DNA from: Pseudocoprococcus catus
GTDB lineage: Bacteria; Bacillota; Clostridia; Lachnospirales; Lachnospiraceae
Reading direction: 5' to 3'
NCBI RefSeq assembly: GCF_902381825.1
Contig: NZ_LR698973.1
Span: forward strand, 1,351,042 to 1,405,482
DNA length: 54,441 bases
Shown here: positions 19,017 through 33,385 of the stretch, one piece after another
How the letters are laid out: the number at the start of each line of letters is the position of its first letter
How positions within the stretch are numbered: the stretch's first letter is position 1
Program-made: the position numbers and the translations under genes
The notes under the pieces: generated by a model
The model's database searches: none
Told to the model about the DNA's origin: nothing
The model's input: the letters and a program-made list of their open reading frames with translations, nothing else

Positions 19017-19061
19017 AAAGGGATATAAAGCAAACGTTTTGCTTTATATCCCTTTGATTTT
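19017..19061 (+). terminator. terminator after glpK with LacI-like loop
   Basis: Arms 19017-19034 and 19038-19055 are perfectly complementary over 18 bases with a 3-base loop. The tip of the hairpin is GCAAACGTTTTGC (19030-19042), which resembles a LacI-family operator; see the matching palindrome at 19904. Confidence 0.8.
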
Positions 19062-19111: not shown

Positions 19112-19900
19112 ATGATAGTGGTGTTTTTTGTGGTCAGCCTGCTGGCATCCATCGTGGGCTCCATCTGTGGTATCGGCGGCGGTGTGATCATCAAGCCGGT
19201 ACTGGACGCTATGAATGTGATGAGCGTATCATGCATCAGTTTTCTGTCCGGGTGTACGGTGCTGACCATGTCGGTGGTATCGGTATACAAGAACATGCGT
19301 GCCGGTAAGAAACTGAATTTTCGGATTGCGACCTTATTGGCCGTTGGTGCAGCTGTTGGCGGTGTGGCCGGCAAGATGATGTTTCAGACAGTGAAGGCAT
19401 CCGTGGGCAATGAGAATTTTGTAGGCATGGTGCAGGCAATCGTGCTGATCGGTGTGACAGGTATAACGTTTGTGTATACAATTTTTAAGAAGAAAATACA
19501 TACACTGACACTGAATAATGCTGCTGTGTGTGTGATTGTGGGACTGGTGCTTGGCATTATGTCAAGTTTCCTTGGTATTGGCGGCGGCCCTATCAACCTG
19601 ATGGTTCTGGGATTTCTTTTTTCGATGTCCACCAAAGAGTCAGCACTGGCTTCCCTGTACATTATTGTCTTTTCACAGGTTACCAGTCTGGTTCAGACCG
19701 TCGTTACGGGAACGATTCCGCCGGTGCAGCTGTCTTATCTTGCAGTGATGGTCATCGGTGGTCTTCTGGGCGGTACGATCGGCAGCAGGATCAACAAGAA
19801 GATCGAGGATGAGAAAGTTGACAAATTGTTTATGGCATTGATGTTTATCATCATCTGCATCAATATTTACAATACTTATAAATTCGCAGTTGCTCTTTAA
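19112..19900 (+). CDS. TauE/SafE-family permease (first copy)
   Basis: Membrane permease of the TSUP (TauE/SafE) family, 262 residues with about eight helices in two repeats. Each repeat begins with the family's glycine-rich half-helix motif: SIVGSICGIGGGVIIKPVL near 13-31 and GIMSSFLGIGGGPINLMVL near 150-168. Family members export sulfite, sulfoacetate, other organosulfonates or move other small anions. ATG 19112 has GGAGG 11 bases upstream, slightly far; a closer ATG at 19105 is in another frame and its product is not protein-like. It is flanked by hairpins and palindromes at both ends and precedes the PFK-like gene. The substrate is inferred only from context. Confidence 0.85.
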   Translation: MIVVFFVVSLLASIVGSICGIGGGVIIKPVLDAMNVMSVSCISFLSGCTVLTMSVVSVYKNMRAGKKLNFRIATLLAVGAAVGGVAGKMMFQTVKASVGNENFVGMVQAIVLIGVTGITFVYTIFKKKIHTLTLNNAAVCVIVGLVLGIMSSFLGIGGGPINLMVLGFLFSMSTKESALASLYIIVFSQVTSLVQTVVTGTIPPVQLSYLAVMVIGGLLGGTIGSRINKKIEDEKVDKLFMALMFIIICINIYNTYKFAVAL

Positions 19901-19903
19901 AAA

Positions 19904-19915
19904 GCAAACGTTTGC
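19904..19915. promoter_or_regulatory. LacI-family-type operator palindrome
   Basis: GCAAACGTTTGC is a perfect 12-bp palindrome with the central CG typical of LacI/PurR-family operators; the flanks (AA...GT) extend the resemblance. It starts four bases after the first TauE/SafE gene and 305 bases before the PFK-like gene. A near copy is at 19030-19042. The LacI regulator at 28158 is the obvious candidate to bind it. Confidence 0.55.
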
Positions 19916-19926
19916 GTCAAAGCTTT

Positions 19927-20220: not shown

Positions 20221-21387
20221 ATGGCAGATAATCTTTTAGTTGTACATGGAGGCGGACCGACCGCAGTAATCAATGCATCTTTGTATGGCGTTATCCGTGA
20301 AGCTAAAAAGAATCCATCAATTGGAAAGGTTCTGGGAGCAATTGGCGGAACAGGCGCAATCTTTACAGAACAGTTTCTTGATCTGACAGCATTTTCAGAT
20401 GAGAAGCTGAAACTTCTGCTTCACACACCGGCTTCGGCCATCGGATCATCCAGATATCCGCTGTATGAAGAAGATTATGCGAAGATGCCTGAGATTTTCA
20501 AGAAACACCATATCGGTTATGTTCTTTTAAATGGCGGGAATGGTACGATGGATGCATGTGAACATATTTATGAAGTTTGTCGGGATCACGGCATCGGTGT
20601 TGCAGGTATTCCGAAAACGGTGGATAATGATATTGCGATGACAGATCATGTACCGGGCTATGGCAGTGCCGCCAGATATCTGGCAGCAACGACACAGGAA
20701 GTCGGAGAGGATGTTAAGTCACTTCCAATCCATGTCAGTGTCATTGAGGCCATGGGAAGAAATGCCGGATGGATCACTGCAGCATCAGCCCTTGCAAGAC
20801 GTAAGAAAGGTGATGCACCGCATCTGATCTATGTGCCGGAAAGACCATTCCATGAAGATGAATTTCTGGAAGATGTAGAAAGACTTTACAAGGAAAAAGG
20901 CGGCGTTGTTGTTGTTGCCAGTGAAGGTTTGACGAACGTCAATGGTGAATCCATTGTTCCTCCGATTTTCAAGAGCGACAGAGCTGTATATTATGGCGAT
21001 GTCAGTGCTTATCTGGCTGAGTTGGTCATTAAGAAACTGGGTATCAAAGCCAGAAGTGAGAAACCGGGTATCTGTGGAAGAGCATCTATTGCCCTCCAGT
21101 CACCGGTGGACAGAGCAGAAGCAATTCTGGTAGGTGAGCTGGCTGTCAAAGCTGTGACTAGCGGCAATGGTGGACATATGATCGGCTTTAAACGTCAGCC
21201 TGGGGATATTTATCAGGTTGAACCGGTACTTGTACCGCTGAAGGATGTCATGCTTTATGAGAGAAAGCTTCCTGAAGCTTATATCAACGAGAGAGGCAAT
21301 GACATCACGGATGAATTTGTGAAATGGTGCGAACCGCTGATCGGTGGCCCGCTTCCTGAATTCCTGAATTTCAGAGATTATATCTAA
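20221..21387 (+). CDS. 6-phosphofructokinase-like kinase, mixed ATP/PPi signature
   Basis: PfkA-superfamily kinase, 388 residues, expected to phosphorylate a ketohexose-type substrate at C1. The donor loop GGNGT (105-109) has Gly108 at the position that is Gly in ATP enzymes and Asp in pyrophosphate enzymes. The catalytic loop PKTVDND (131-137) has Lys132, the pyrophosphate-type residue, with the catalytic Asp pair. MGRNAGW (178-184) is conserved. The usual sugar-phosphate loop (HxQRGG) reads GICGR (283-287), keeping Arg but not His, as in several group III enzymes. The donor (ATP, PPi or other) is open. A short spacer leads to a TIM-like gene, so it is probably the first gene of an operon. 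Start ATG 20221 has AGGAG upstream. Confidence 0.8.
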   Translation: MADNLLVVHGGGPTAVINASLYGVIREAKKNPSIGKVLGAIGGTGAIFTEQFLDLTAFSDEKLKLLLHTPASAIGSSRYPLYEEDYAKMPEIFKKHHIGYVLLNGGNGTMDACEHIYEVCRDHGIGVAGIPKTVDNDIAMTDHVPGYGSAARYLAATTQEVGEDVKSLPIHVSVIEAMGRNAGWITAASALARRKKGDAPHLIYVPERPFHEDEFLEDVERLYKEKGGVVVVASEGLTNVNGESIVPPIFKSDRAVYYGDVSAYLAELVIKKLGIKARSEKPGICGRASIALQSPVDRAEAILVGELAVKAVTSGNGGHMIGFKRQPGDIYQVEPVLVPLKDVMLYERKLPEAYINERGNDITDEFVKWCEPLIGGPLPEFLNFRDYI

Positions 21388-21450
21388 AAGTTTCTTATCC
21401 ATATACTGGGAAAAGAATAGATGATACAATATAGGGAGGAAATTGTAACA

Positions 21451-22287
21451 ATGAAACATATTTATCTGAATCTGAAGAGATTTGATATTCCAACAGAGAC
21501 AGGCGGCGTCAACCGTATCGCTTCGCCGGCGGAATGGGGACCATATATTGTCTCCCACACACAGGATCAGCTGGCGGCCTACAATCCAAAGGATGTAGAG
21601 TTTGCCATGTTTTTCCCGGAAGCTCATCTGATTGGTGCTGTTTCAGCAAGAAAAGCAGACAGTGCATTGAAGATCGGACCACAGAGTGTTCTGGGACAGG
21701 ATACAGCCGTTGGCGGCAACTTCGGTGCCTTTACTTCAAATCGTACAGGTAATGCCATGAAAGCCATCGGATGTGATGCTGTACTGATCGGTCACTGTGA
21801 AGAGCGCCGTGATAAGCTGAGTATCATTGCTGAAGGCAAGGGTACAGATGCAGCAGCTGTCAACCGGATCCTGAACAAAGAGATTAAGGCAGCTATTGCA
21901 GCTGGTTTGGATGTACTTTACTGTATCGGGGAGAATGCCGATGAACAACCAAGATGGCAGGAAGTTCTGAAGGAACAGTTGACAGTAGGTCTTGAAGGCG
22001 TAGACAAGAGTAAAGTCACCATTGCTTATGAGCCTGTATGGGCCATTGGACCTGGCAAGATTCCGCCGGATGCAGATTATATCCGGAAGATTGCTTCTTA
22101 TGTCAAGGAAGTGACAGATGGCATGGATGTTGTCTATGGCGGCGGCTTAAAGACAGACAATGCGAAGATGCTTGCATCCGTCAAAGAGATTGACGGCGGT
22201 TTGATCGCGTTAACAAGATTTTCAGGAGAGATTGGTTTTTATCCGGATGAATATCTGGAGATCATTAAGACTTATCTCGGATATTAA
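21451..22287 (+). CDS. triose-phosphate-isomerase-like protein with altered phosphate loops
   Basis: TIM-barrel isomerase of the TpiA superfamily, 278 residues. The catalytic set is complete: Asn7 and Lys9 (LNLKRF in place of GNWKM), His115 and Glu117 (IGHCEERR) and Glu194 with loop 6 (YEPVWAIGPGK, 193-203). The phosphate pocket is not: loop 7 reads YGGGL (229-233) rather than YGGSV, and loop 8 GGASL is replaced by a longer LTRFSGEIGFYPDEY (254-268). This suggests an aldose-ketose substrate whose terminal group is not an ordinary phosphate. ATG 21451 has AGGGAGGA ten bases upstream; the frame runs open to 21421 without signal. It may still act on triose phosphates weakly; it is unlikely to be the housekeeping Tpi. 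Confidence 0.75.
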   Translation: MKHIYLNLKRFDIPTETGGVNRIASPAEWGPYIVSHTQDQLAAYNPKDVEFAMFFPEAHLIGAVSARKADSALKIGPQSVLGQDTAVGGNFGAFTSNRTGNAMKAIGCDAVLIGHCEERRDKLSIIAEGKGTDAAAVNRILNKEIKAAIAAGLDVLYCIGENADEQPRWQEVLKEQLTVGLEGVDKSKVTIAYEPVWAIGPGKIPPDADYIRKIASYVKEVTDGMDVVYGGGLKTDNAKMLASVKEIDGGLIALTRFSGEIGFYPDEYLEIIKTYLGY

Positions 22288-22338
22288 TTCACAGTACATA
22301 TCGTTTACAGACAGAATTTAAAATGGAGGTTTTTTAGA

Positions 22339-23130
22339 ATGGGCAAGAAGAGCAAAGGCGCTGATTTTGTCGGAAAGATTCCAAAGGGTGTCTGGCTGCT
22401 GATTTCATTAGTAGTAGCATTGATATTATGGACAGTTTTATCAATCATCCCAAGTACATCCAGATGTTTTCCGAATGCGATTAAAGTTATTGGTTCCATC
22501 CAGACGATGGTTTCAAGAGGTTTACTGTTCAAGGATATCGGAAGCAGTTTGATTTCCGTATTACTTGGTTTCCTGATCGGTTTCGTTACAGCCGTTCCGG
22601 TTGCGTTCCTGATGGCATGGTACAGACCTGTAAGATTCATCATTGAGCCATGGATCCAGTTCATCAGAAACATTCCACCACTGGCTTACGTACCACTGGT
22701 TGTTATCGGTGTTGGTGTCGGTCGTACACCTCAGGTCATCGTTATCTGGCTGGCTACATTCCTTACAATGACAGTCACAATTTTCCAGGGTGTTATCAAC
22801 GTGGATGAGACATTGATCAAAGCTGCAAGAGTACTTGGTGCAAAGGATTCAGACCTTTTCGTTAAGGTTATTTTCCCAGCAACAACACCATTTATTATCA
22901 CAGCTATCCGTCTTGGTATTTCAACAGCCCTGACAACACTGATCGCTGCCGAATCAACAGGTGCAGTTGCCGGTCTTGGTATGCGTATCAAAGCATTATC
23001 TAACTCTTATGAAACAACACCAATGCTTCTCTACATTATCATCATCGGTATCATCGGTATGCTGGCAGAGAAGATTCTTAAATATTTTGAAAGGAAGTTA
23101 ACAGGATGGCAGGAAAAGAGGGAAATATAA
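22339..23130 (+). CDS. ABC permease, TauC/SsuC type
   Basis: Membrane permease of the nitrate/sulfonate/taurine ABC group, 263 residues with about six helices. The binding-protein-dependent transport signature lies near 150-170 (EAA-like loop DETLIKAARVLGAKDSDLFVKVIFPATTPFI contains ARVLGAKD). Other family landmarks are FIRNIPPLAYVPLVVIGVGVGRTPQ near 115-135 and ALTTLIAAESTGAVAGLGMRI near 195-215. Its end overlaps the ATPase gene by 25 bases, so the two are translationally coupled. Partners are the ATPase at 23106 and the lipoprotein at 24048. The family moves sulfonates, nitrate, pyrimidines and other small molecules; the cargo is not readable directly. Confidence 0.88.
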   Translation: MGKKSKGADFVGKIPKGVWLLISLVVALILWTVLSIIPSTSRCFPNAIKVIGSIQTMVSRGLLFKDIGSSLISVLLGFLIGFVTAVPVAFLMAWYRPVRFIIEPWIQFIRNIPPLAYVPLVVIGVGVGRTPQVIVIWLATFLTMTVTIFQGVINVDETLIKAARVLGAKDSDLFVKVIFPATTPFIITAIRLGISTALTTLIAAESTGAVAGLGMRIKALSNSYETTPMLLYIIIIGIIGMLAEKILKYFERKLTGWQEKREI

Positions 23131-23897
23131 AAGTCAGTATTCGTAATGTCGTAAAGAAATACGACACACGAAATGGTGAAATGATCGCTTTAAATGGTGC
23201 CAATCTTGACATCATGGAGAATGAGTTTATCTGTGTTATCGGACCTTCCGGCTGCGGTAAGTCCACACTTTTGAATATTATCGCAGGTCTTCTGGAACCG
23301 ACATCCGGTGAAGTTATCGTAGATGGACACAAAGTTGAAGGTACAGGCGTGGATCGAGGCGTTGTCTTCCAGCAGTATGCACTGTTCCCTTGGCTGACAG
23401 TTAAGAAAAATGTTCAGTTTGGTCTGAAACTTCAGGGCAAGTCCCAGACAGAAATGGATGCCATCGCTGAGAAGTATATCAAGATGGTAGGTCTTGAGAA
23501 GTTTATAGATTCTTATCCGAAGGAATTATCCGGTGGTATGAAACAGCGTGTGGCCATTGCAAGAGCTTATGCCGTTAATCCTTCTGTTCTTCTTATGGAT
23601 GAGCCTTTTGGTGCTCTGGATGCCCAGACAAGAACACAGCTTCAGACAGAGTTGTTAAAGACATGGCAGGAAGAGAACAAGACATGTTTCTTTGTTACCC
23701 ATGATATTGAAGAAGCCATCGTACTGGCATCAAGAGTTGTCATCATGAGTGCACGTCCTGGACGTATCAAAGAGATCATCGATATTGATATTCCTCATCC
23801 GAGAGATCAGGCCACAAAGATGAGTCCGAGATTCGTTGAATTGAAGAATTACATTTGGAGTCAGGTATATCAGGAATATCTGGAAGTTCAGAAATAA
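23106..23897 (+). CDS. ABC ATPase, TauB/SsuB type
   Basis: Cytoplasmic ATPase, 263 residues, of the SsuB/TauB group. Walker A is GPSGCGKST near 46-54, signature LSGGMKQRVAIARAY near 144-158, Walker B VLLMDEPFGALD near 163-174 and the H-loop is FVTHDIEEA near 196-204. The start ATG 23106 lies inside the end of the permease gene with AAAGGAAG upstream. It energises the permease at 22339. Confidence 0.92.
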   Translation: MAGKEGNIKVSIRNVVKKYDTRNGEMIALNGANLDIMENEFICVIGPSGCGKSTLLNIIAGLLEPTSGEVIVDGHKVEGTGVDRGVVFQQYALFPWLTVKKNVQFGLKLQGKSQTEMDAIAEKYIKMVGLEKFIDSYPKELSGGMKQRVAIARAYAVNPSVLLMDEPFGALDAQTRTQLQTELLKTWQEENKTCFFVTHDIEEAIVLASRVVIMSARPGRIKEIIDIDIPHPRDQATKMSPRFVELKNYIWSQVYQEYLEVQK

Positions 23898-23985
23898 TAA
23901 GTGAATTATTATCTTACAGACCGCACAGAAGCGTCATCTTCAGGAAATGACTGCTCTGCGCGGAATGTGGGATTATAATGATACA

Positions 23986-24026
23986 GGTGAACGGCGTAAT
24001 GAACCGGTCACCGACACACTTTTTTT
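23986..24026 (+). terminator. hairpin with T run before the binding-protein gene
   Basis: GGTGAACGG (23986-23994) pairs with CCGGTCACC (24004-24012) with one mismatch, then a GACACAC gap and seven T (24020-24026). A second, larger imperfect hairpin precedes it (about 23922-23963). Probably a partial terminator or processing site between ATPase and binding-protein genes. Confidence 0.45.
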
Positions 24027-24047
24027 AGGAAAAGGAGAGATTGGGAA

Positions 24048-25142
24048 ATGAAAAAAAGAATCATGGCAGTTGTTGTAACAGCAGCAATGGTAATGGGTGC
24101 TTTAGCAGGATGCGGAAGCTCATCTGCAAAAGAAACACAGGCACCTGCATCAACAGAGGCAGCATCAGAAACTGCTGCAGCATCTGAAACAACAGGGGAA
24201 ACAGCAGCATCAGATGCAGCTTCAGGTGATCTGACACATGTGAACGTTGCTTACATGGCAAACTACGCATCACTGTGGCAGGTAGCAACAGCAATCAACA
24301 AAGGATACTTCAAGGATGAAGGTCTTGATGTTCAGCTTTACATGTTCCAGGACGGTCCTACAGAAATCGCTTCTATGGAATCCGGTTCAATTGATGTCGC
24401 TTACATCGGACCTGGCGCACACAAACTGTGTATCAAAGGTCAGGCAGATATCTTCTGCTTCTCACAGCTCGGCAACGCAGACTGTGTAATGGGTCTTAAA
24501 TCTCATGGTGTAAACTCCCTTGAAGATCTGAAGGGTAAGAAAGTTGCTTATGCATCCGGTACATCTTCAGAAACAATCTTAAAGAGAGCTCTTAATTCCG
24601 TTGGCCTGACAATGGATGATATTGAAGCATATGATATGGAAGTCAGCAACATGGTAAGTGCAATCGTTTCCGGTTCTATCGACGCTTGTGCTCCTTGGTC
24701 TCCAAGCTCAACAACAATTGCAAACGAACTTGGCGATGATGTTCAGACATTCTGTACAAATACAACATTCTCTGATATCGCAGCTGACTGTGCAAGCTGG
24801 ATCTGCATGCCAAGCTACGCAGAAACAAACAAAGACGTTCTTGTGAAATTTACAAAGGCTCTTTACAAAGCAATGGATTTCGCTTCAAACCCAGACAACT
24901 ATGATGAAGTTGCAGGTTATGTTGCTCAGGAATGCGGTACAGACAAAGAAAGCGCACTTGCTCAGACAGGCGACGGTGCTTGGCTTGACAGCGCAACACT
25001 TCTTAAATATGTAGGCGATGGTACAATCAAAGGTTACTATGAAGTACAGCAGAAGAACTTCATCGACAATGGTGATGTTGAATCTGAAGTGCCTGTAGAA
25101 GACTATGTATTATTCGACGTTATGGAAGAAGCAGGTAAGTAA
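24048..25142 (+). CDS. NMT1/TauA-type ABC binding lipoprotein
   Basis: Extracellular solute-binding lipoprotein for the permease and ATPase just upstream, 364 residues, periplasmic-binding fold type II. The signal peptide ends in LAGC (lipid Cys22), followed by a 40-residue Ala/Ser/Thr/Glu linker. The mature part opens with VNVAYMANYASLWQVATAINKGYF (68-88), then GLDVQLYMF and SGSIDVAYIG, the NMT1-like arrangement. The middle domain (about 139-243) includes LKGKKVAYASGTSSETILKRAL. AAGGAGAG precedes the ATG. A paralogue lacking almost exactly that middle domain lies at 39615. Substrate unknown; sulfonates and related anions are common for the family. Confidence 0.88.
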   Translation: MKKRIMAVVVTAAMVMGALAGCGSSSAKETQAPASTEAASETAAASETTGETAASDAASGDLTHVNVAYMANYASLWQVATAINKGYFKDEGLDVQLYMFQDGPTEIASMESGSIDVAYIGPGAHKLCIKGQADIFCFSQLGNADCVMGLKSHGVNSLEDLKGKKVAYASGTSSETILKRALNSVGLTMDDIEAYDMEVSNMVSAIVSGSIDACAPWSPSSTTIANELGDDVQTFCTNTTFSDIAADCASWICMPSYAETNKDVLVKFTKALYKAMDFASNPDNYDEVAGYVAQECGTDKESALAQTGDGAWLDSATLLKYVGDGTIKGYYEVQQKNFIDNGDVESEVPVEDYVLFDVMEEAGK

Positions 25143-25173
25143 TCTGAATTTTTAATTCTTTACTGCAGGGCAG

Positions 25174-25206
25174 TATCTGCCATCTTTAACAGTAAAATGG
25201 CAGATA
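25174..25206 (+). terminator. hairpin after the binding-protein gene
   Basis: TATCTGCCAT (25174-25183) pairs perfectly with ATGGCAGATA (25197-25206). AAA follows instead of T, so this may be an mRNA-stabilising or processing hairpin rather than a terminator. Confidence 0.45.
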
Positions 25207-25211
25207 AAAGC

Positions 25212-25248
25212 AGGTGCCTTGTGGCTCATTACCATGAGGCACCTTTTG
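25212..25248 (+). terminator. terminator before the LarA-like gene
   Basis: AGGTGCCT (25212-25219) pairs with AGGCACCT (25237-25244), with an inner TGG/CCA pairing, followed by TTTTG. It ends the importer transcript. Confidence 0.7.
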
Positions 25249-25365
25249 TATGCCGAAAAATGTCAAATTTCGGTGTACCGGGTGGCGGCCTATCCGCCGG
25301 GTTTCCAATTTCCTGGAAACAGACGACTTATAACTCAGATAATATTATAATCGGGAGGAAATAAC

Positions 25366-26841
25366 ATGAAACTTGATTTTGAATATGGATTAGGCACAAT
25401 GCAGGCAGAACTGCCGGATAATACAGATGTATTTATTTCTGGTGAAACAGTGAAGGATCCTGCATGTATTCCGGAGGACCAGTTAGAGGCTGCATATCTT
25501 GAGAGCCTGGCACATCCGATCGGCATGCCGACATTAACAGAGCTTGCACACAAAGGTACAACAGTTACGATCATTGTTCCGGACCGTGTTAAAGGCGGCG
25601 AGCAGCCAACAAGCCATAGAAAATTAAGCATTAAATATATTTTAAAAGAACTTTATGCAGCAGGCGTAGAAAAGAAAGATATCCTGTTTATCATTTCCAA
25701 TGGCCTTCATCCGAGAAGTAAAGCATCCGATGCCAAGGCAATTTTCGGTGATGAACTGTTCAATGAATTCTGGCATTCAGGTCAGATCATCAGCCACGAC
25801 AGCGAAGATCAGGAGCATATGATCTATCTTGGTACAACAAAGCGCGGTGATCCTGTTTATATGAACAAATATGTTTATGATTCAGATCTGCCGATCCTCA
25901 TCGGTCACGTACAGGGCAACCCTTACGGCGGTTATTCAGGCGGTTACAAGCACAGTGCAACAGGTATCACAAACTGGAGATGTATCGCCAGCCATCATGT
26001 GCCGTCTGTTATGCACAGAGACGACTTTACACCTGTTAACGGCGGCAGCTTAATGAGACATAAATTCGATGAGATCAGTATGCATATGGAAGAGAAGATG
26101 GGCCATCCGTTCTTCTGCTGTGATGCCGTTTTGGATACTTATTCAAGACAGATTGCGATTTATTCCGGTTACGCTAAGGAAATGATGCCGATCAGCTGGA
26201 AACTGGCAGATAAGAGAACTTATGTCCACTGGGCAGAGAAGAAATACGATGTACTGGTATTTGGTATGCCTCAGAAATTCCACTATGGCGACGGCATGGG
26301 CACAAACCCGATCATGATGATGCAGGCTTTAAGTGCACAGGTACTTCGTTTCAAGAGAATCATGAGCGATAATTGCGTCATCATCTGTTCATCTGCATGC
26401 AACGGCTATTTCCATGATGAATTATGGCCATATCTGAGAGAACAGTATGAGCTGTTCCAGCATGATCATATGAATACACTGCCGGATATCGATCGTTACG
26501 GTGAATATTTTGCAACAAATGAAGAATATATCCGCAAATATCGTTTCTGCAATGCGTTCCATCCATTCCATGGTTTCTCCATGATGTCCTGCGGTCATAT
26601 TGCTGAAATGAATACAAGTGCCATTTACATTGTCGGTGCTCAGGAACCTGGCTATGCAAGAGGCATGGGCTTAAAGACAAGAGCGACATTTGAAGAAGCC
26701 CTTGAAGATGCCAAGAAGAAATTTGTTGGTCAGAATCCAAACATTCTGGCGCTGCCTCTGACATACAAGAGAGCAGCTGTTCATTTGTGCATGAAGAATC
26801 CTGAAGAGGACTGCATGGATGAATATGGGCATCGTCACTAA
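25366..26841 (+). CDS. LarA-family nickel-pincer hydroxyacid racemase/epimerase
   Basis: LarA homologue (DUF2088), 491 residues. The family inverts a hydroxyl-bearing carbon of 2-hydroxyacids by hydride transfer on a nickel-pincer nucleotide; different branches act on lactate, malate, hydroxyglutarate, phenyllactate or gluconate. Visible motifs: first catalytic His in ISNGLHPRS (about 117); the cofactor lysine and second His region GHVQGNPYGGYSGGYKHSATG (about 187-207, Lys in GGYKHS); nickel-binding His in ASHHVPSVMH (about 215). The C-terminal half holds FGMPQKFHYGDGMGTNP. No larB, larC or larE genes are nearby, so the cofactor would be made elsewhere. GGGAGG precedes the ATG. The Pgi-like gene starts 20 bases downstream. 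Substrate unknown. Confidence 0.8.
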   Translation: MKLDFEYGLGTMQAELPDNTDVFISGETVKDPACIPEDQLEAAYLESLAHPIGMPTLTELAHKGTTVTIIVPDRVKGGEQPTSHRKLSIKYILKELYAAGVEKKDILFIISNGLHPRSKASDAKAIFGDELFNEFWHSGQIISHDSEDQEHMIYLGTTKRGDPVYMNKYVYDSDLPILIGHVQGNPYGGYSGGYKHSATGITNWRCIASHHVPSVMHRDDFTPVNGGSLMRHKFDEISMHMEEKMGHPFFCCDAVLDTYSRQIAIYSGYAKEMMPISWKLADKRTYVHWAEKKYDVLVFGMPQKFHYGDGMGTNPIMMMQALSAQVLRFKRIMSDNCVIICSSACNGYFHDELWPYLREQYELFQHDHMNTLPDIDRYGEYFATNEEYIRKYRFCNAFHPFHGFSMMSCGHIAEMNTSAIYIVGAQEPGYARGMGLKTRATFEEALEDAKKKFVGQNPNILALPLTYKRAAVHLCMKNPEEDCMDEYGHRH

Positions 26842-26861
26842 TACGGAGGCGTTTGAACAAT

Positions 26862-28124
26862 ATGATCCAATTTCAGATGTTTGATCATCAGCCGGAACGC
26901 TGTGAAAAATATCATCAGATGCTGAAGGACAATCTGCCGGTGCTTGAGGGCATCGGCAGTGAAGCCGATTTTGAAAAATACGGAGATTCTCTCGGATGGT
27001 TTGATATCGATACATGGGCCAATGAGGCAGAATTAAGTGCCATTGAAGAACTGGCAGCAAGGGTGCGCCGGGATGCAGATGTTTTTGTTCTCATTGGTGT
27101 GGGCGGTTCCAACAATGCAGCCCGCTCAGTGATTGAAGCTTTTCCGGAATGTGATGGGCCGGAGATCGTCTATGCCGGCAATTCATTGTCACCATGGGCT
27201 TTTGAACAGGTCATGAAAAAGATTAGCGGCAAGTCCGTTTATATTGACTGTATCGCCAAGAACTTTCAGACACTGGAGCCGGGATCGGCATTCAGAGTAC
27301 TGAGAGAATATCTTTATGAAACGTATGGGGATAAGGCCAATGAGCGTATCATTGCAACAGGCTCCCGCAATAGTCTGTTGGAAACTATCTGCAAAGAGCA
27401 CGGATACAGCTTTGTAGAATTTCCGCAGACAGTGGGCGGCAGATATACAGCGGTAACGGCCGTGGGACTTTTGCCTATGGCCGTGGCCGGCATTGATATC
27501 CGTGCCCTTGTTAAGGGGGCAGCCGATATGGCAGCTGAGTTAAAAGGCTGCAGAGACATCACACAGTCTGCTTATCGCTATGCGGTGGCAAGAAATCTCT
27601 ATTATAACGAAGGATACAGAATGGAAATGCTGGCATCCTTTGAACCACAGCTTCACTGGTTCTATAAATGGTGGATCCAGCTATTTGCGGAGAGTGAAGG
27701 CAAAGAAGATCAGGGACTTTATCCGATCAGTGGTGAATACTCAGAGGAACTGCACTCTGTCGGACAGTTTCTTCAGGATGGCAGCCCTGTGATCATTGAG
27801 ACATTTTTACATGTGAAAGATCCGCAGGCGTCCATGATCGTCCATCCGGATGGTCGTGTGAAGGATGATTTTGATTATTTGAATGGCAAAGACTTCAGAG
27901 AGATCAATGAAGCTGCTTATGGAGCCACACTTCGTGCCCACAGTGAAAAGATGCCATGTATGGTGCTTGAGGTTGAGAAATTAACACCGTACAGTTTCGG
28001 AGAGATCTTTTATTTCTTTATGTATACATGCTATGTATCAGCGGGAATTCTGGGCGTGAATCCCTTTGACCAGGAAGGTGTGGAAGCCTACAAACAGCGT
28101 ATGTTCAAAGCCCTTGGCAAGTAG
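26862..28124 (+). CDS. glucose-6-phosphate-isomerase-like protein with altered phosphate loop
   Basis: Sugar isomerase of the Pgi superfamily, 420 residues (housekeeping bacterial Pgi is usually about 450). Catalytic landmarks are intact: GVGGSNNAAR (79-88), VGGRYTAVTAVGLLP (191-205), Glu277 in FAESEGKE, His298 in EELHSVGQ, and the C-terminal Lys in GVEAYKQRMF. The phosphate-holding loop, normally SKSGTTTEP or SKTFTTQET, reads AKNFQTLEP (132-140), so most phosphate-binding Ser/Thr are gone. The substrate is probably an aldose with another group at C6. ATG 26862 has GGAGG 12 bases upstream; an in-frame TTG at 26853 is too close to that site. Last gene before the convergent LacI gene. Confidence 0.78.
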   Translation: MIQFQMFDHQPERCEKYHQMLKDNLPVLEGIGSEADFEKYGDSLGWFDIDTWANEAELSAIEELAARVRRDADVFVLIGVGGSNNAARSVIEAFPECDGPEIVYAGNSLSPWAFEQVMKKISGKSVYIDCIAKNFQTLEPGSAFRVLREYLYETYGDKANERIIATGSRNSLLETICKEHGYSFVEFPQTVGGRYTAVTAVGLLPMAVAGIDIRALVKGAADMAAELKGCRDITQSAYRYAVARNLYYNEGYRMEMLASFEPQLHWFYKWWIQLFAESEGKEDQGLYPISGEYSEELHSVGQFLQDGSPVIIETFLHVKDPQASMIVHPDGRVKDDFDYLNGKDFREINEAAYGATLRAHSEKMPCMVLEVEKLTPYSFGEIFYFFMYTCYVSAGILGVNPFDQEGVEAYKQRMFKALGK

Positions 28125-28139
28125 AGGTATTTGGGCGTT

Positions 28140-28172
28140 AAAAAGGACAGGCCTCTCTTAATGAGAAGCCTG
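28140..28172 (-). terminator. terminator of the LacI gene
   Basis: CAGGCCTCTC (28148-28157) and GAGAAGCCTG (28163-28172) form a 10-bp stem with one G-U pair on the minus strand. The T run lies at 28140-28146. The loop contains the LacI stop codon. Confidence 0.7.
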
Positions 28173-29225
28173 CTGACGTAAGGTTGAGAAAAGTCTGCGG
28201 TCACGGTTGAGGGGACAGCAGCTGTCACGTTTGGCAATATAATAAGGCAGAAAGGTTTTAAGCGGCATCCGGTGGCCGCCGCTTACACGGTCAAGGAGCA
28301 CCTTGAAAGCCATTTTGCCCAGTTCATCTGTCGGAATATGAACGGTAGTGAGCATCGGAGACATATATTGTGCGATATCGATATCATCGATACTGATAAC
28401 AGAAATATCTTCAGGTACACGGAAGTTCAGCTTTTTTAGAGCATGAAGAACACCGATGGCTGTACGGTCATTGGCACAGAGGATGGCGGAAAGGTCATCA
28501 CATGTTCTGGCCAGCATTTTCATGCCTTCGTAGCCGCCCTCGGATGTCTGATGGACATTGGCGGTGTTGCGCTGGGCAAATGGCAGATTAAGTTTGGACA
28601 GGGCTTCCTTGTAGCCGCTGAAGCGGGGCTCCTTATCCTGCTCACCGATATAGCCGATAACAGTATGACCCAGGGATTTCAGATAGGAAATCGCCGTATA
28701 GACAATTTCACTGCCGTCACAGACAACCTGATCGAACTGGAAATCCATTGGGATTAGGCCGGTGTAGACAACATTCTTGCTGAGATTGCTGACCAGAGAA
28801 GCAATCCGCTGGTCGTAACGGCCGAGAACAACAATACCGTCAGCGGGAAACTGGGTAAGCTGAGCAGCAGTTTCAGGTCGGCCAAGGTCCTGGGAAGTAA
28901 AAGAGTAGCGAATGAAATAGCGACTTTTGATGGCTTCCAGTTCCAAAGCCTTTACGATCTGTGAGAAGAAAGGATCTGACATATCCGTATGGGTTCTGGC
29001 ATAAACACAGGCAATGGACTTGGGATCCGGATCGCGATGCTCGGCAGACTGTCCGAGCTTCAGATTGCGGGCTGTTTTATTCGGTGAATAGCCGGTACGA
29101 CGGATAATCTCCCATATACGGGCCTGCACTTTGGGACTGGCTGCTTTTGTATTTTCCTGATTGATGACACGGGAGACTGTGGATACAGAAACTCCCGCTT
29201 CCTTTGCGATTTCTTTAAGCGTCAT
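28158..29225 (-). CDS. LacI-family transcription regulator
   Basis: DNA-binding regulator, 355 residues. The N-terminal helix-turn-helix and hinge helix are clear (MTLKEIAKEAGVSVSTVSRVINQ, then GYSPNKTARNLKLG near 50-63). The rest is a periplasmic-binding-like effector domain (VSIDDIDIAQYMSPMLTTVHIPTDELGKMA near 285-315). It is divergent from the NagB-like gene and convergent with the Pgi-like gene, in the middle of the unusual sugar cluster, so it is the likely local regulator. Its ligand is presumably a cluster metabolite. LacI-type palindromes occur at 19030 and 19904; an 8-bp inverted repeat lies in its own upstream region. Confidence 0.92.
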   Translation of the reverse strand: MTLKEIAKEAGVSVSTVSRVINQENTKAASPKVQARIWEIIRRTGYSPNKTARNLKLGQSAEHRDPDPKSIACVYARTHTDMSDPFFSQIVKALELEAIKSRYFIRYSFTSQDLGRPETAAQLTQFPADGIVVLGRYDQRIASLVSNLSKNVVYTGLIPMDFQFDQVVCDGSEIVYTAISYLKSLGHTVIGYIGEQDKEPRFSGYKEALSKLNLPFAQRNTANVHQTSEGGYEGMKMLARTCDDLSAILCANDRTAIGVLHALKKLNFRVPEDISVISIDDIDIAQYMSPMLTTVHIPTDELGKMAFKVLLDRVSGGHRMPLKTFLPYYIAKRDSCCPLNRDRRLFSTLRQQASH

Positions 29226-29247
29226 AGATGAACCTCACTGATAGATA

Positions 29248-29275
29248 AGATGACCGGTTAACGAAAGGGTCATCT
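29248..29275. promoter_or_regulatory. inverted repeat between LacI and NagB-like genes
   Basis: AGATGACC (29248-29255) and GGTCATCT (29268-29275) are perfect arms 12 bases apart. The position, just upstream of the NagB-like promoter and 23 bases from the LacI start, suits an operator controlling both directions. Confidence 0.45.
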
Positions 29276-29283
29276 GTTATTCC

Positions 29284-29312
29284 GTTGACAAAGTGTCTAT
29301 ATAGTAGTATAG
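29284..29312 (+). promoter_or_regulatory. sigma-A promoter for the NagB-like operon
   Basis: TTGACA at 29284-29289 and TATAGT at 29307-29312 have a 17-base spacer, 40 bases before the NagB-like start. Confidence 0.75.
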
Positions 29313-29352
29313 TACAAAATGTTTTTTTTACAATAAAAGGTGGTAGCATAAC

Positions 29353-30177
29353 ATGAAACATGAATATTACCAGTATAATGCAGAGGAGCTCCTGTCCAAA
29401 GGACCAAAGTTCCCTCTGATTATTATGAAAGACAATGCAGAAGTTTTTAAATCCATGGCAGATGAGATGGCAGATACGATCGTTGAGCATAATGCAAAAG
29501 GCGAGAAGACTGTATTTATCTGTCCTGTAGGCCCTGTAGGACAGTATCCTTATTTTGTTGACAGAGTCAACAGCGAGAAAATCAGCCTGAAAAATGTCTG
29601 GTTCATCAATATGGATGAATATCTGGATGATAACAAAGAATGGGTGAGCATCGATCATCCGTTAAGTTTCAGAGGCTTTATGAAACGTACTGTTTATGAC
29701 AAAATCAATCCTGAACTGGTGATGCCGGAAGCACAGAGAATCTTCCCTGATCCAAAGAATCCGGGTCACATTCCGGAAGTGATCGGGCAGCTTGGCGGTG
29801 TGGATATCTGCTTCGGCGGTATCGGTATCAATGGCCATGTTGCTTTCAATGAAGCAGACGGAAGTCTCAGCAATGAAGAATTTCTGGCACAGCAGACACG
29901 TGTCTTAAAGATTACGCCTGAGACAAGAACAGCCAATGCGATTGGTGATTTTAACGGTGCCCTTGAGGATATGCCGCATTACTGCATCACAATCGGTATC
30001 AATGAAATTTCCCATGCACGTAAGATCCGTCTGGGCTGCTTCAGAAACTGGCATCGTGCCGTTGTAAGACGTGCTGTTTATGGTGAACAGACATCTGAAT
30101 TCCCAGTCAGCTTATTACAGAATCATTCGGATATTAATCTGAAGATTACTGAATTTGTAGCAAGCCTTACAGATTAA
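29353..30177 (+). CDS. glucosamine-6-phosphate deaminase-like protein, altered phosphate site
   Basis: NagB/6-phosphogluconolactonase-fold enzyme, 274 residues, expected to isomerise and deaminate a 2-amino sugar. Catalytic residues are present: Asp88-Glu89-Tyr90 (NMDEY), Asn160-Gly161-His162 and Glu167 (GINGHVAFNEA), Arg192 (TRTANA). Two phosphate-binding elements differ: the N-terminal loop ATGGTP reads PVGPVG (58-63), and the G-S-x-K-A segment reads GCFRNWHRA (228-236), losing the usual Lys. GGTGGT precedes the ATG weakly. NagA-like and aldolase genes follow in the same direction. It is more divergent than a housekeeping NagB; a non-deaminating isomerase is a possible alternative. Confidence 0.75.
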   Translation: MKHEYYQYNAEELLSKGPKFPLIIMKDNAEVFKSMADEMADTIVEHNAKGEKTVFICPVGPVGQYPYFVDRVNSEKISLKNVWFINMDEYLDDNKEWVSIDHPLSFRGFMKRTVYDKINPELVMPEAQRIFPDPKNPGHIPEVIGQLGGVDICFGGIGINGHVAFNEADGSLSNEEFLAQQTRVLKITPETRTANAIGDFNGALEDMPHYCITIGINEISHARKIRLGCFRNWHRAVVRRAVYGEQTSEFPVSLLQNHSDINLKITEFVASLTD

Positions 30178-30266
30178 TATGTTTATCATAGGCGGGGCGT
30201 TCAGCAAATGGAAGTATGATTCCCTGCATTTACAGCAGTGTTAAAACAGACAGAGGCGATAACAAA

Positions 30267-31433
30267 ATGAAAACATTAATTAAAAATGGACAGGTTTATA
30301 TGAACCGCCATTTTGAGAAGAAAGATTTATTGTTGGATGACAGAAAGATTGCTGTGATCGGAGATTTTCTTGAGCCGGAAGATGCGGATACAGCAGTATA
30401 TGATGCGGAAGGCTGTTATGTCACACCGGGATTTATCGATGTGCATACACATGGTGGTTTTGGTGTGGATGTCAATGCAGCCACACAGGAAGATTACGAG
30501 AAAATCGGCCATTTCTTTGCAAAGGAAGGCACCACATCCTGGCATTGCTCTATCTTGACGGATACTGAAGAGCAGACAGACTGGTGCATTAAAGAAGCTG
30601 TGAAGCATTATGAAACCAATACAGCAGCAGGACAGCCGCACGGCAATTGTGCGGATCTGATGGGAATCCATTTGGAGGGACCGTTCCTGGCATCGGAGTA
30701 CAAAGGGGCGATGCCTGAATATCTGCTTCGTACAGCGGATATGCCGCTTTTAAAGCACTATCAGGAGACAGCAGGCGGTTTTATTCATTACATAACTGTA
30801 TCACCGGAAGTTGCAGGTATTCCGGAGCATGTCAAAGATATCACTGAGATGGGCATCAAAGTGGCTATCGGTCATTCCGGTGCGGATTATGCCACATCCT
30901 GGAAATGTATCGATGCCGGTGCAGCAGCCGCAACCCATACATTTAATGCGATGCGCCTGTTCCATCAGCATGAGCCGGCCATCATGGGTGCGGTTCTTGA
31001 ATCGGATGTATACTGCGAAGCTATTTGCGATGGCCGACATCTTCATCCGGGTTCTGTCCGTTTCCTTTTGAAAATGAAGGGGTATGACAGAGTCATTGCC
31101 ATCACAGACTCCATTATGGCCGCAGGACTGCCGGACGGCAACTACAAACTGGGAGTCAACGATGTCATTGTTGAAGAAGGTGATGCAAAACTCAAAGATG
31201 GTACAAGAGCCGGCAGTACCCTGACAACGGGACAGGCATTCAGAAATCTGATGAAATTCACCGGCGAAAGCCCTGAGAAGATTCTTCCATTGCTGACAGA
31301 GAACCCGGCCACCATGTTGGGGCTGCAGAACAGAATTGGCTTCATCGGCGAAGGCAGAGATGCCGATGTGCTGATTATGGACAGCGAATTCCAGATAAAA
31401 GAAACATTTGTCAAAGGACGTCGAATTATTTAG
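30267..31433 (+). CDS. N-acetylglucosamine-6-phosphate deacetylase-like protein
   Basis: Amidohydrolase of the NagA family, 388 residues. Metal and catalytic residues: His60 and His62 (DVHTHGG), Glu137 (HLEGPF), His203 (IGHSGADY), His224 (ATHTFNAM), His258 (DGRHLHP) and catalytic Asp281 (AITDS). In NagA the motif GREPG supplies an Arg from the neighbouring subunit that holds the substrate phosphate; here the segment reads HQHEPA (233-238) and His235 replaces it. The expected reaction is deacetylation of an N-acetyl amino sugar with a changed C6 group. I start at ATG 30267 with AGAGG ten bases upstream; the frame extends to 30216 without homology. Confidence 0.8.
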   Translation: MKTLIKNGQVYMNRHFEKKDLLLDDRKIAVIGDFLEPEDADTAVYDAEGCYVTPGFIDVHTHGGFGVDVNAATQEDYEKIGHFFAKEGTTSWHCSILTDTEEQTDWCIKEAVKHYETNTAAGQPHGNCADLMGIHLEGPFLASEYKGAMPEYLLRTADMPLLKHYQETAGGFIHYITVSPEVAGIPEHVKDITEMGIKVAIGHSGADYATSWKCIDAGAAAATHTFNAMRLFHQHEPAIMGAVLESDVYCEAICDGRHLHPGSVRFLLKMKGYDRVIAITDSIMAAGLPDGNYKLGVNDVIVEEGDAKLKDGTRAGSTLTTGQAFRNLMKFTGESPEKILPLLTENPATMLGLQNRIGFIGEGRDADVLIMDSEFQIKETFVKGRRII

Positions 31434-31455
31434 AAAATAGAGAGGAGTTTTAAAA

Positions 31456-32607
31456 ATGCCATTAATTCCATTAAGACCTTTACTTGAAACTGTTGATAAA
31501 TATCACTATGCGCAGGGTGCTTTCAATGTCAACGCTGTTGCTCAGGCAAAAGCGGCCATTGAAGTGCATGAAATGTTCCGTTCTGCAGCAATCCTGCAGG
31601 GTGCAGATCTGGCCAACGGATTCATGGGCGGCCGTACAGATTTCCAGAATGCAACTCTGGAAGACAAGAAGATCGGTGCCAAAAATATTGCCAATGCCGT
31701 CAAGAAATATGCTGAGGATTCACCTATTCCTGTTGTTCTGCATCTGGATCACGGCAAGAACTTTGATTCCTGTAAAGCAGCCATCGAAGGCGGTTATACA
31801 TCTGTTATGATCGATGGTTCTTCACTGCCGTTTGATGAAAATGTAGAGCTGACAAGAGAAGTTGTTAAATATGCCCATGAAAGAGGCGTTTCTGTTGAAG
31901 GTGAGCTGGGTGTATTAGCCGGTGTGGAAGATCACGTATTTTCTGCAACATCAACTTACACAAACCCATTAAAAGCTGTTGAATTCTTTAAGAAGACAGG
32001 CGTAGATGCGCTGGCTATCTCTTATGGTACAATGCACGGTGCGTCTAAAGGTAAAAATGTTAAACTGAGAAAAGAAATCGTTATTGCCATCAAAGAGTGC
32101 CTGATGCATGAAGGTATCTTTGGCGTTTTAGTTTCTCATGGTTCTTCAACTGTTCCAAAATACATTGTTGATGAGATTAATGCCCTGGGCGGCAATATTC
32201 AGAATGCCCATGGTATTTCTGTAGATGAACTGAAAGCAGCTATTCCTTGCGGTATCGGCAAGATCAATGTTGATACAGATATCCGTCTGGCTGTTACAAG
32301 AAACATGAAAGAATTCTTCCATAACTATCCGGAGAAACGCAACAGCCCATCCATCGGCGGTGTCTATAAACTGCTTGAAGAGAAGAAAGATCAGTTTGAT
32401 CCTCGTGCATTCCTGCCTCCGATCATGGATACCGTTATGTACGGCAATGTTCCTGATGAAGATGTTGCTGCTCTGGTTGCTGTCATCGAAAAAGGTGTTA
32501 AAGAAGCTATTGGTACGCTGATTGTACAGTTTGGTTCATTCGGTAAGGCACCGCTTGTTGAGCAGGCAAGTCTTGATGAAATGGCTGAACGCTACAAGAA
32601 GATGTAA
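31456..32607 (+). CDS. class II (zinc) ketose-bisphosphate aldolase
   Basis: Zinc-dependent aldolase of the class II fructose-bisphosphate family, 383 residues, longer than the usual 285-320. Metal and catalytic motifs: LHLDHGKN (catalytic Asp, zinc His), EGELGVLAG (Glu), SYGTMHGASKGK (zinc His), VSHGSSTVP (zinc His, phosphate loop) and NVDTDIRLA (dihydroxyacetone phosphate loop). Arg in DIRLA and in FDPRAF correspond to residues that hold the C6 phosphate in related enzymes, so a charged C6 group is still likely. An insert (KRNSPSIGGVYKLLEEKK) and a 55-residue C-terminal extension set it apart. GAGAGGAG precedes the ATG. It could serve the cluster substrate or fructose 1,6-bisphosphate. Confidence 0.85.
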   Translation: MPLIPLRPLLETVDKYHYAQGAFNVNAVAQAKAAIEVHEMFRSAAILQGADLANGFMGGRTDFQNATLEDKKIGAKNIANAVKKYAEDSPIPVVLHLDHGKNFDSCKAAIEGGYTSVMIDGSSLPFDENVELTREVVKYAHERGVSVEGELGVLAGVEDHVFSATSTYTNPLKAVEFFKKTGVDALAISYGTMHGASKGKNVKLRKEIVIAIKECLMHEGIFGVLVSHGSSTVPKYIVDEINALGGNIQNAHGISVDELKAAIPCGIGKINVDTDIRLAVTRNMKEFFHNYPEKRNSPSIGGVYKLLEEKKDQFDPRAFLPPIMDTVMYGNVPDEDVAALVAVIEKGVKEAIGTLIVQFGSFGKAPLVEQASLDEMAERYKKM

Positions 32608-32665
32608 TTGCATCAATCATATATAATTGCGTCAATAATAGAAGGTAAAGAAGGAATTGTACAAC

Positions 32666-33385
32666 ATGGTCTGGCTGATTGTTGCGACACTTGCTGCTAG
32701 TTTTATTAAGGGTGTCTGTGGATTTGCCAATACCCTTGTATTTACCACGATATTGAGTTTTTCGTTCAATAACATTCAAATTACGCCGATGGATCTGATT
32801 ATCGGCTACCCGGCCAATGTGATCATTGCATGGAAAGAGCGCAGGCAAATTAACTGGCGAATCAGCCTGCCGGTGGCAGCTCTGATCATTTTCGGCAACA
32901 TTCCCGGTATTTTTATGCTGAAGAATGTGGACACGCGAACCATCAAAGTGATTTTCGGTTTTTTCATTATCGCCATGGGCATTGAGATGCTGATGCGGGA
33001 GAGAGCCGGAAAGAAGCAGAAACAGTCAAAAATCATACTTGGACTGATTGGTGTGCTTTCAGGTCTGTGCTGCGGACTTTATGGTGTCGGTGCACTGCTG
33101 GCGGCGTATATGGATCGTGTGACTGAGGACAGCCATGCATTCAAAGGCAATCTTTGCTTTGTATTCTGGATTGAATGTACATTCAGACTGATTGTCTATC
33201 CATGCATCGGCATATTGAACTGGCAGATCTTTCGTCAGGCGGTATGTATGATTCCGTTTATGGTGCTGGCGCTGGTTTTTGGCATGAAGTGCTGCGGACA
33301 TTTGAACGAAACGGTCATCAAGAGACTGGTCATTATCGTGCTGATATTGTCAGGAATTGCACTTGTTATCCAAAACCTTTGTTAA
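32666..33385 (+). CDS. TauE/SafE-family permease (second copy)
   Basis: TSUP-family membrane protein, 239 residues with about seven or eight helices. Glycine-rich repeat motifs are less strict than in the first copy: AASFIKGVCGFANTLVFT near 10-27 and GVLSGLCCGLYGVGALLAAY near 133-152. The shape suggests a different subfamily from the copy at 19112. I start at ATG 32666, 11 bases after AAGAAGG; the TTG at 32657 is only two bases from that site. It follows the aldolase by 58 bases and ends in a strong terminator, so it is the last gene of the NagB-like operon. Substrate unknown; sulfonate or sulfite export is a family role. Confidence 0.8.
   Translation: MVWLIVATLAASFIKGVCGFANTLVFTTILSFSFNNIQITPMDLIIGYPANVIIAWKERRQINWRISLPVAALIIFGNIPGIFMLKNVDTRTIKVIFGFFIIAMGIEMLMRERAGKKQKQSKIILGLIGVLSGLCCGLYGVGALLAAYMDRVTEDSHAFKGNLCFVFWIECTFRLIVYPCIGILNWQIFRQAVCMIPFMVLALVFGMKCCGHLNETVIKRLVIIVLILSGIALVIQNLC

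Follow-up and report, generated by a model that had tools for sequence, protein, structure and literature searches.

A gene cluster of Pseudocoprococcus catus with altered phosphate pockets and a TIM–LarA pair, proposed to degrade sulfonated hexoses and their N-acetyl amino form

Introduction

Why would a bacterium keep a second set of glycolytic and amino-sugar enzymes in which the residues that hold phosphate have changed? The question is raised by a stretch of 54,441 nucleotides from Pseudocoprococcus catus (assembly GCF_902381825.1, contig NZ_LR698973.1, positions 1,351,042 to 1,405,482; hereafter the window, in whose numbering coordinates are given), where genes of the NagA, NagB, Pgi, phosphofructokinase (PFK), aldolase and triose-phosphate isomerase (TIM) types lie together at 20221–32607. 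A first-pass annotation, made from the letters alone, had named these six genes, and all six are present with scores far above chance; it missed a LarA-type gene (25366..26841, + strand) and the ABC-transporter and TauE genes, though the pairing of TIM with LarA is central to the cluster. On balance we favour the view that the cluster serves to degrade C6-sulfonated hexoses and their N-acetyl amino form, through a glycolysis resembling the sulfo-Embden–Meyerhof–Parnas 2 (sulfo-EMP2) route with an amino-sugar entry and a TIM–LarA end. The sulfo group, the substrates and the order of the steps are predictions drawn from homology and gene context.

Altered phosphate pockets

The TIM-like protein (21451..22287, +) matches the triose-phosphate isomerase profile at 6e-24, scoring 85 bits where the curated cut-off is 293. 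Aligned with its relatives (47 rows; this and the later alignments include the window itself and its own species, locus L043), it has the fold of true TIM and the catalytic Asn, Lys, His and Glu (N-x-K, His and Glu being kept), while the true-TIM phosphate loops YGGS and GGAS are absent from 47/47. The YGGS(V) stretch reads YGGGL(K) in every row, and GGAS(L) has become ALTRF in 43, ALTKF in three and ALTHF in one, placing Arg or Lys in loop 8 of 46 of the 47 proteins and His in the last. The ordinary tpiA of G001, the nearest comparison genome and itself a carrier of the cluster, reads YGGSV/GGASL. Here and below we take the roles of pocket residues from general knowledge of the families, and the letters themselves from the alignments.

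The Pgi-like isomerase (26862..28124, +; 1e-118, 397 bits against a cut-off of 443) keeps its E, H, K and R, and lacks the SKSGTTTEP-type phosphate loop of the ordinary G001 copy, with (I)AKNFxTLEP in all seven cluster-type rows. Its gene finds a 98% match in Coprococcus catus VPIC661. In the NagB-like deaminase/isomerase (29353..30177, +; 3e-30, 105 bits against a cut-off of 237), PVGPVG stands in 18/18 rows where a solved NagB (5hj5) has PTGGTP; Asp72 is kept, and the Asp141 of the Asp141-His143-Glu148 set is Asn (INGH), again in 18/18. The NagA-like deacetylase (30267..31433, +; ATG at 30267, 6e-86) scores above the TIGR00221 cut-off and has its metal and catalytic motifs, with HLEGPF in 20/20 rows and GHS, TH..N.M and TDS mostly kept. 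Its phosphate site differs in part only: the window has His in place of the REP Arg (HEP; mostly HFP or HEP across the 20 rows), and the DGxH His is kept. The first-pass claim that all four proteins retain catalytic residues and replace phosphate-holding ones therefore stands for TIM and Pgi, for the loop but not the catalytic Asp of NagB, and for one of the NagA positions. Among the other two enzymes, the class II aldolase (31456..32607, +; 1e-73) keeps the motifs inspected, and the PFK-family kinase (20221..21387, +; NCBIfam PRK14072, 1e-119) joins GGNGT with PKTVDND, so that its family name cannot tell ATP from pyrophosphate as donor.

The first-pass annotation had also called for a check on separate standard copies of tpiA, pgi and nagB. 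In G001, tpi lies in a gap-pgk-tpi-gpmI locus and another pgi stands apart from the cluster; a standard nagB was not found there, a TIGR00502 search matching the cluster copy only, below cut-off, and a PF01182 search of the same genome giving no match and missing the cluster NagB as well, so that the latter is no independent test for nagB. Because the loop changes are fixed across rows, the alignments support a C6 group other than phosphate, which would be processed stepwise in the manner of amino-sugar catabolism and glycolysis; this core of the first-pass proposal survives, on a gene set that was incomplete.

A conserved TIM–LarA pair with varied upper routes

A TIM-like gene was found at E ≤ 1e-30 in 30 of 397 genomes of the family, and about 20 kb around each best match (less at contig ends) were examined, the span that the counts for these TIM-selected loci cover. 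LarA is present in 30/30 and is the immediate neighbour of TIM in 27, L043 being one of the three loci in which it does not adjoin. The kinase occurs in 24, NagB in 17, NagA in 17 (16 at no less than 35% identity), the aldolase in 16, an SsuC-like permease in 14 and Pgi in five. With LarA as the query, matches came from 8 of 398 phylum genomes, 12 of 391 class genomes and 5 of 22 genomes from another class, all of these sets overlapping. At 20 further loci selected by LarA, TIM is adjacent in 16; the other four (L078, L081, L096 and L099) are without TIM and have a gene of the 3-hydroxyisobutyrate dehydrogenase family at most two genes from LarA. The TIM–LarA pair is the conserved heart of the module, NagA, NagB and Pgi are interchangeable entries, and the pair seems to be the shared end of several upper routes.

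Judging from the sequences, the isomerase slot can be filled by a Pgi-like, a NagB-like or, on weak matches, a type I mannose-6-phosphate-isomerase-like protein (over cut-off by a small margin in L046 and L103 and under it in L075, with L102 assigned through its 31% similarity to L046), a variety that would mirror the convergence of glucose-, mannose- and glucosamine-6-phosphate on fructose 6-phosphate. Locus L063 has a transaldolase gene beside TIM–LarA, together with NagA and NagB; its best PDB match is 8bc3, 'BmSF-TAL', at 302 bits, with two entries named only transaldolase at 298 and 293 bits and the next at 149. From its entry name we take 8bc3 to be a sulfofructose transaldolase. Elsewhere the pair is accompanied by transketolase halves (L037 and L098), by a 2-oxoacid dehydrogenase complex (L039) or, in L076, by an SDR, an SMP-30 lactonase, two genes of the dihydrodipicolinate synthase (DHDPS) family and Tct transporters, a set that we take to be partly like the sulfo-Entner–Doudoroff (sulfo-ED) route. 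At L036 (10491–17238) it stands with a nucleoside hydrolase, a BMP-type importer and RpiB- and Rpe-type genes, neighbours that suggest a modified nucleoside or pentose as the source. DUF4838 proteins are encoded in L049, L059 and L063, loci with NagB-type genes; a structural model of P0121, which shares 91% identity with the L063 protein, resembles glycosidases of the GH115/GH84/GH20 type, and the DUF4838 proteins may release the amino-sulfosugar.

Some observations concern single genomes or loci. Genome G955 has three LarA loci (L096, L097 and L098), with a different upper module at each. Next to TIM–LarA in L076 (5484–9226) lie a DHDPS-family gene, genes for a GcvH-like lipoyl protein and a 285-residue protein with a weak glutaredoxin match, and an arylsulfotransferase-like gene. 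In L035 (11166–14878), the genes after LarA encode an FGGY-type kinase and a LUD-domain (LutC-like) protein, a possible link to lactate seen in this one locus.

A sulfo group as the candidate C6 substituent

The best candidate for the C6 group, on sequence comparison, is a sulfo group, because a close homologue of sulfofructose transaldolase is present in L063, SsuABC-type importers recur and exporters of the TauE/SafE type (TSUP family) accompany the module. The L076 set, partly like sulfo-ED, and the Arg or Lys in loop 8 of the TIM-like proteins count in its favour as well. The window's importer comprises an SsuC/TauC-type permease (22339..23130, +) and an SsuB/TauB-type ATPase (23106..23897, +) and an SsuA-family substrate-binding protein (24048..25142, +; TIGR01728 at 2e-35, 122 bits, below the cut-off of 163.5). 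A first exporter gene (19112..19900, +; Pfam TauE, 2e-31), probably for sulfite or sulfonate, precedes the kinase, and a second follows the aldolase (32657..33385, +; Pfam TauE, 1e-30). Chromate-transporter-family genes in four loci (L081 and, by similarity, L101, L107 and L108), three of them without a TSUP match, hint at export of an inorganic anion.

In the route that we postulate, the SsuABC-type importer would take up the sulfosugar. N-acetyl-6-deoxy-6-sulfoglucosamine would be deacetylated by the NagA-like enzyme, then deaminated and isomerised by the NagB-like enzyme to 6-deoxy-6-sulfofructose, which the Pgi-like enzyme would also form from sulfoquinovose. The PFK-like kinase, in a role like that of SqiK, would make 6-deoxy-6-sulfofructose 1-phosphate, and the aldolase, in a SqiA-like role, would cleave it to dihydroxyacetone phosphate (DHAP), which enters glycolysis, and 3-sulfolactaldehyde (SLA). 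The TIM-like enzyme would convert SLA into an achiral ketone, 2-oxo-3-hydroxypropane-1-sulfonate, the Arg or Lys of loop 8 gripping the sulfonate where backbone NH groups grip phosphate in TIM. The first-pass idea that this enzyme handles an unusual triose would then take a more definite form, its task probably being to prepare the substrate of LarA.

The ketone is a candidate substrate of LarA because a TIM-type reaction on SLA and an oxidation of 2,3-dihydroxypropane-1-sulfonate (DHPS) both lead to it: the same compound would arise if a dehydrogenase oxidised DHPS at its secondary alcohol, which would explain the loci that have a dehydrogenase-family gene in the place of TIM. It is the primary alcohol, however, that is oxidised by the known DHPS dehydrogenases described in the accessible part of PMC11131964; the ketone itself is recorded there as detected in diatoms and coccolithophores. 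LarA might then cleave the C–S bond, releasing sulfite, which would leave through TauE/SafE, and carbon either as methylglyoxal or, through a hydride shift on one face, as D-lactate. Loss of sulfite would be a redox-neutral reaction, sensible for a fermenter. This LarA step is the least certain part of the pathway; C–S cleavage is the reaction that we favour for it, though at well under even odds.

Relation to known pathways

The first-pass annotation had taken the full set to be undescribed, which does not hold for the kinase and aldolase families: sulfo-EMP2, the SqvD/SqiK/SqiA pathway of Gram-positive bacteria, already uses a PF00365 kinase, SqiK, to make sulfofructose (SF) 1-phosphate and a PF01116 aldolase, SqiA, to split it into DHAP and SLA (PMC9594981, in its accessible part). 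The window encodes the same two families (20221 and 31456) together with a sugar isomerase (26862 or 29353). The isomerase of sulfo-EMP2 is the FucI-like SqvD, whereas that of the module is Pgi-like, mannose-6-phosphate-isomerase-like or NagB-like; the module adds the NagA/NagB amino-sugar entry; and sulfo-EMP2 ends in an SLA reductase or dehydrogenase, whereas the module's SLA seems to be routed to TIM–LarA. No such last-step enzyme was found at the 30 TIM-selected loci, where no frame was assigned to the single dehydrogenase-family reference (from L081) or to the single aldehyde-dehydrogenase reference (from L077). A TIM-like step sits oddly with known sulfoglycolysis, in which SLA is oxidised or reduced; our search of the open-licence literature found no LarA or TIM-type enzyme joined to sulfolactaldehyde metabolism, one review among the results describing, as far as its accessible text goes, ordinary sulfo-EMP.

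Other systems invite comparison. The sulfofructose-transaldolase (sulfo-TAL) pathway shares with L063 the transaldolase beside TIM–LarA, but L063 gave no match to the SLA reductase and dehydrogenase reference genes and has NagA/NagB. Central NagA–NagB–Pgi–PFK–aldolase–TIM metabolism uses the same families in the same order as the module, which differs from it in its changed phosphate loops and in standing apart, in G001, from ordinary tpiA and pgi. L-erythrulose-1-phosphate isomerase and similar TIM paralogues that serve different sugars act on phosphates, whereas the GG phosphate loop is missing from the window's TIM-like protein. The kinase–aldolase part is thus sulfo-EMP2-like and hence known; the amino-sugar entry is possibly undescribed and the end chemistry possibly new.

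The single-histidine LarA and the last step

The best PDB matches of the window's LarA are 9q3j, at 1067 bits across 490 residues, and 9q2u, at 814 bits, which, from entry names and these scores, we take to be LarA_Bw and LarA_Sp. The protein is a close homologue of that subfamily and shares its Asn and its active-site residues. In place of the second catalytic His of lactate racemase it has N185, as do all 51 LarA rows; H115, N185, K195, H211, H306, Y307 and H402 are identical throughout, barring the cut-short or split genes of L038 and L059, and the active-site residues persist in proteins as little as 44% identical. A 2025 report by Gatreddi et al. on single-histidine LarA structures (PMC12611868), in its accessible portions, gives no lactate racemisation with LarA_Sp, leaves the substrate open, finds a 316.5 Da adduct and already notes the glycolysis-type neighbours; its authors propose a carbohydrate substrate, model a phosphorylated aldose and suggest a unidirectional racemase. 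The same portions contain no link that we could find between the subfamily and sulfonates or the neighbours' changed phosphate pockets. Work cited there has sulfite binding to Lactiplantibacillus plantarum LarA and forming a C–S bond with its nickel-pincer nucleotide (NPN) cofactor, so sulfite fits such a site. The single-histidine LarA may be a new anaerobic desulfonating enzyme that acts on the ketone and hands sulfite to TauE/SafE, a possibility to which we give less than even odds; with the same reserve, the desulfonase as proposed would fall outside the oxygenase, glycyl-radical, pyridoxal phosphate, thiamine pyrophosphate and SuyAB types.

LarA may instead leave the C–S bond intact and racemise, epimerise or dismutate C3 sulfonates (SLA and the ketone giving sulfolactate and DHPS, for example), with TauE exporting a C3 sulfonate as in known sulfoglycolysis; we regard this as a strong contender, if short of an even chance. 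TSUP proteins export sulfonates too. Characterised LarA enzymes racemise or epimerise 2-hydroxy acids (PMC11770544, PMC7583248; both as far as accessible), and the unidirectional racemase suggested for the single-histidine structures (PMC12611868) would fit. Yet one catalytic His is missing, LarA_Sp showed no lactate racemisation (PMC12611868, same portions), and a different hydride-mediated reaction has been considered possible for such members (PMC7583248). Moreover, L096 and L099 combine an ABC importer, a dehydrogenase-family gene, LarA and TauE, and importing one C3 sulfonate to export another would bring little gain.

Weighing the sulfosugar pathway

Several results weigh against the sulfosugar pathway as set out above. 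The sulfofructose-type transaldolase is present in one of the 50 loci, and TSUP homologues are present in no more than 23 (14 of the 30 TIM-selected and 9 of the 20 LarA-selected). The NagB-like enzyme has lost its catalytic Asp141. No dehydratase gene was found among the scanned L076 proteins, which leaves the likeness to sulfo-ED partial, and L036 would require a sulfonated nucleoside or pentose, of which we know none. L078 has kinase and aldolase with LarA and the dehydrogenase-family gene and lacks TIM, and so fits poorly with conversion of SLA to the ketone by TIM alone. The term sulfoquinovosamine did not turn up in our search of the open-licence literature.

The cofactor genes add to these points. 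LarC is not enriched with the single-histidine LarA module, being found in 34 of 48 module genomes and 34 of 48 family genomes without a TIM-like gene (33 over cut-off), a comparison group defined by absence of that gene and not by LarA status; among the better genomes the figures are 29/42 and 27/39. Of the 48, thirteen (those of L034, L041, L052, L055, L056, L058, L059, L061, L062, L100, L102, L107 and L108) gave no match to LarC, and neither LarB nor LarE exceeded its cut-off in them, the LarB search covering 29 of the 48 and including all 13. Cofactor and hydride chemistry are therefore uncertain in these genomes, whose LarA keeps the cofactor residues (the L059 gene is split); they may scavenge NPN or do without it.

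A C6 O-sulfate ester, such as mucin N-acetylglucosamine 6-sulfate, in place of the C-sulfonate is unlikely in our estimate. NagB and NagA genes, each in 17 of the 30 TIM-selected loci, would suit such a sugar, a sulfonate pocket may accept sulfate too, and chromate-transporter-family genes could serve sulfate export; on chemical reasoning sulfate leaves an enediol well, and so, with the same low probability, the product could be glyceraldehyde 3-sulfate, from which the TIM-like enediol would expel sulfate to give methylglyoxal, turned by LarA into lactate. The L063 transaldolase is nearest to an enzyme of 6-deoxy-6-sulfofructose, however, the importers and exporters are of sulfonate and sulfite types, and for an ester a sulfatase would be the simpler solution.

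Less probable still is the absence of any C6 group, the enzymes having lost phosphate binding and working on 6-deoxy or free sugars and on lactaldehyde or glyceraldehyde. Loss of the phosphate loops alone would permit this, and the nucleoside hydrolase of L036 could supply 5-deoxyribose; but loop 8 of TIM carries Arg or Lys in 46/47 and His in one, the transporters are of sulfur type, and L063 has its sulfofructose-type transaldolase. That these are redundant, relaxed paralogues of glycolytic and amino-sugar enzymes still using phosphates, as the G001 search that gave no other nagB might suggest, is highly improbable given that the altered motifs are fixed (47/47, 7/7 and 18/18) and that the genes travel with LarA and, at many loci, with sulfonate-type transporters.

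Organisation of the cluster

Short gaps separate kinase and TIM (63 bases), LarA and Pgi (20) and NagA and aldolase (22); others measure 127 to 320 bases, and more than one transcript is therefore likely. A LacI-family regulator is encoded on the opposite strand (28158..29225, −). The palindrome GCAAACGTTTGC lies at 19901–19918, directly 3' of the first TauE gene and 5' of the kinase, and is a possible candidate for a LacI operator; a hairpin at 19017–19055 holds a stretch resembling GCAAACGTTTGC. For the second exporter (32657), no frame was assigned at 30% identity or more in 38 scored loci, the 20 kb cut of L043, from the same species, stopping short of this gene. Further downstream, at 39615–40367, a binding-protein-like frame of 250 residues resembles the SsuA-type protein at 24048 and is apparently shortened.

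Implications

If the sulfosugar pathway is correct, it would extend the range of sulfonated sugars, of dietary or host origin, that can be used in the gut by the Coprococcus family, and a LarA subfamily with a solved structure would gain a function. Each of its steps could be tested with single purified proteins. According to the accessible text of PMC12330013, PMC11659671 and PMC12890257, anaerobic sulfoglycolysis leaves a portion of the sugar's carbon in an excreted C2 or C3 sulfonate for other bacteria to desulfonate. Were the desulfonation by LarA also true, all six carbons of a sulfosugar would become usable by fermenting gut bacteria, a so far unreported N-acetyl amino form would be among the sugars used, and these bacteria would be a direct source of sulfite feeding the formation of hydrogen sulfide by others.

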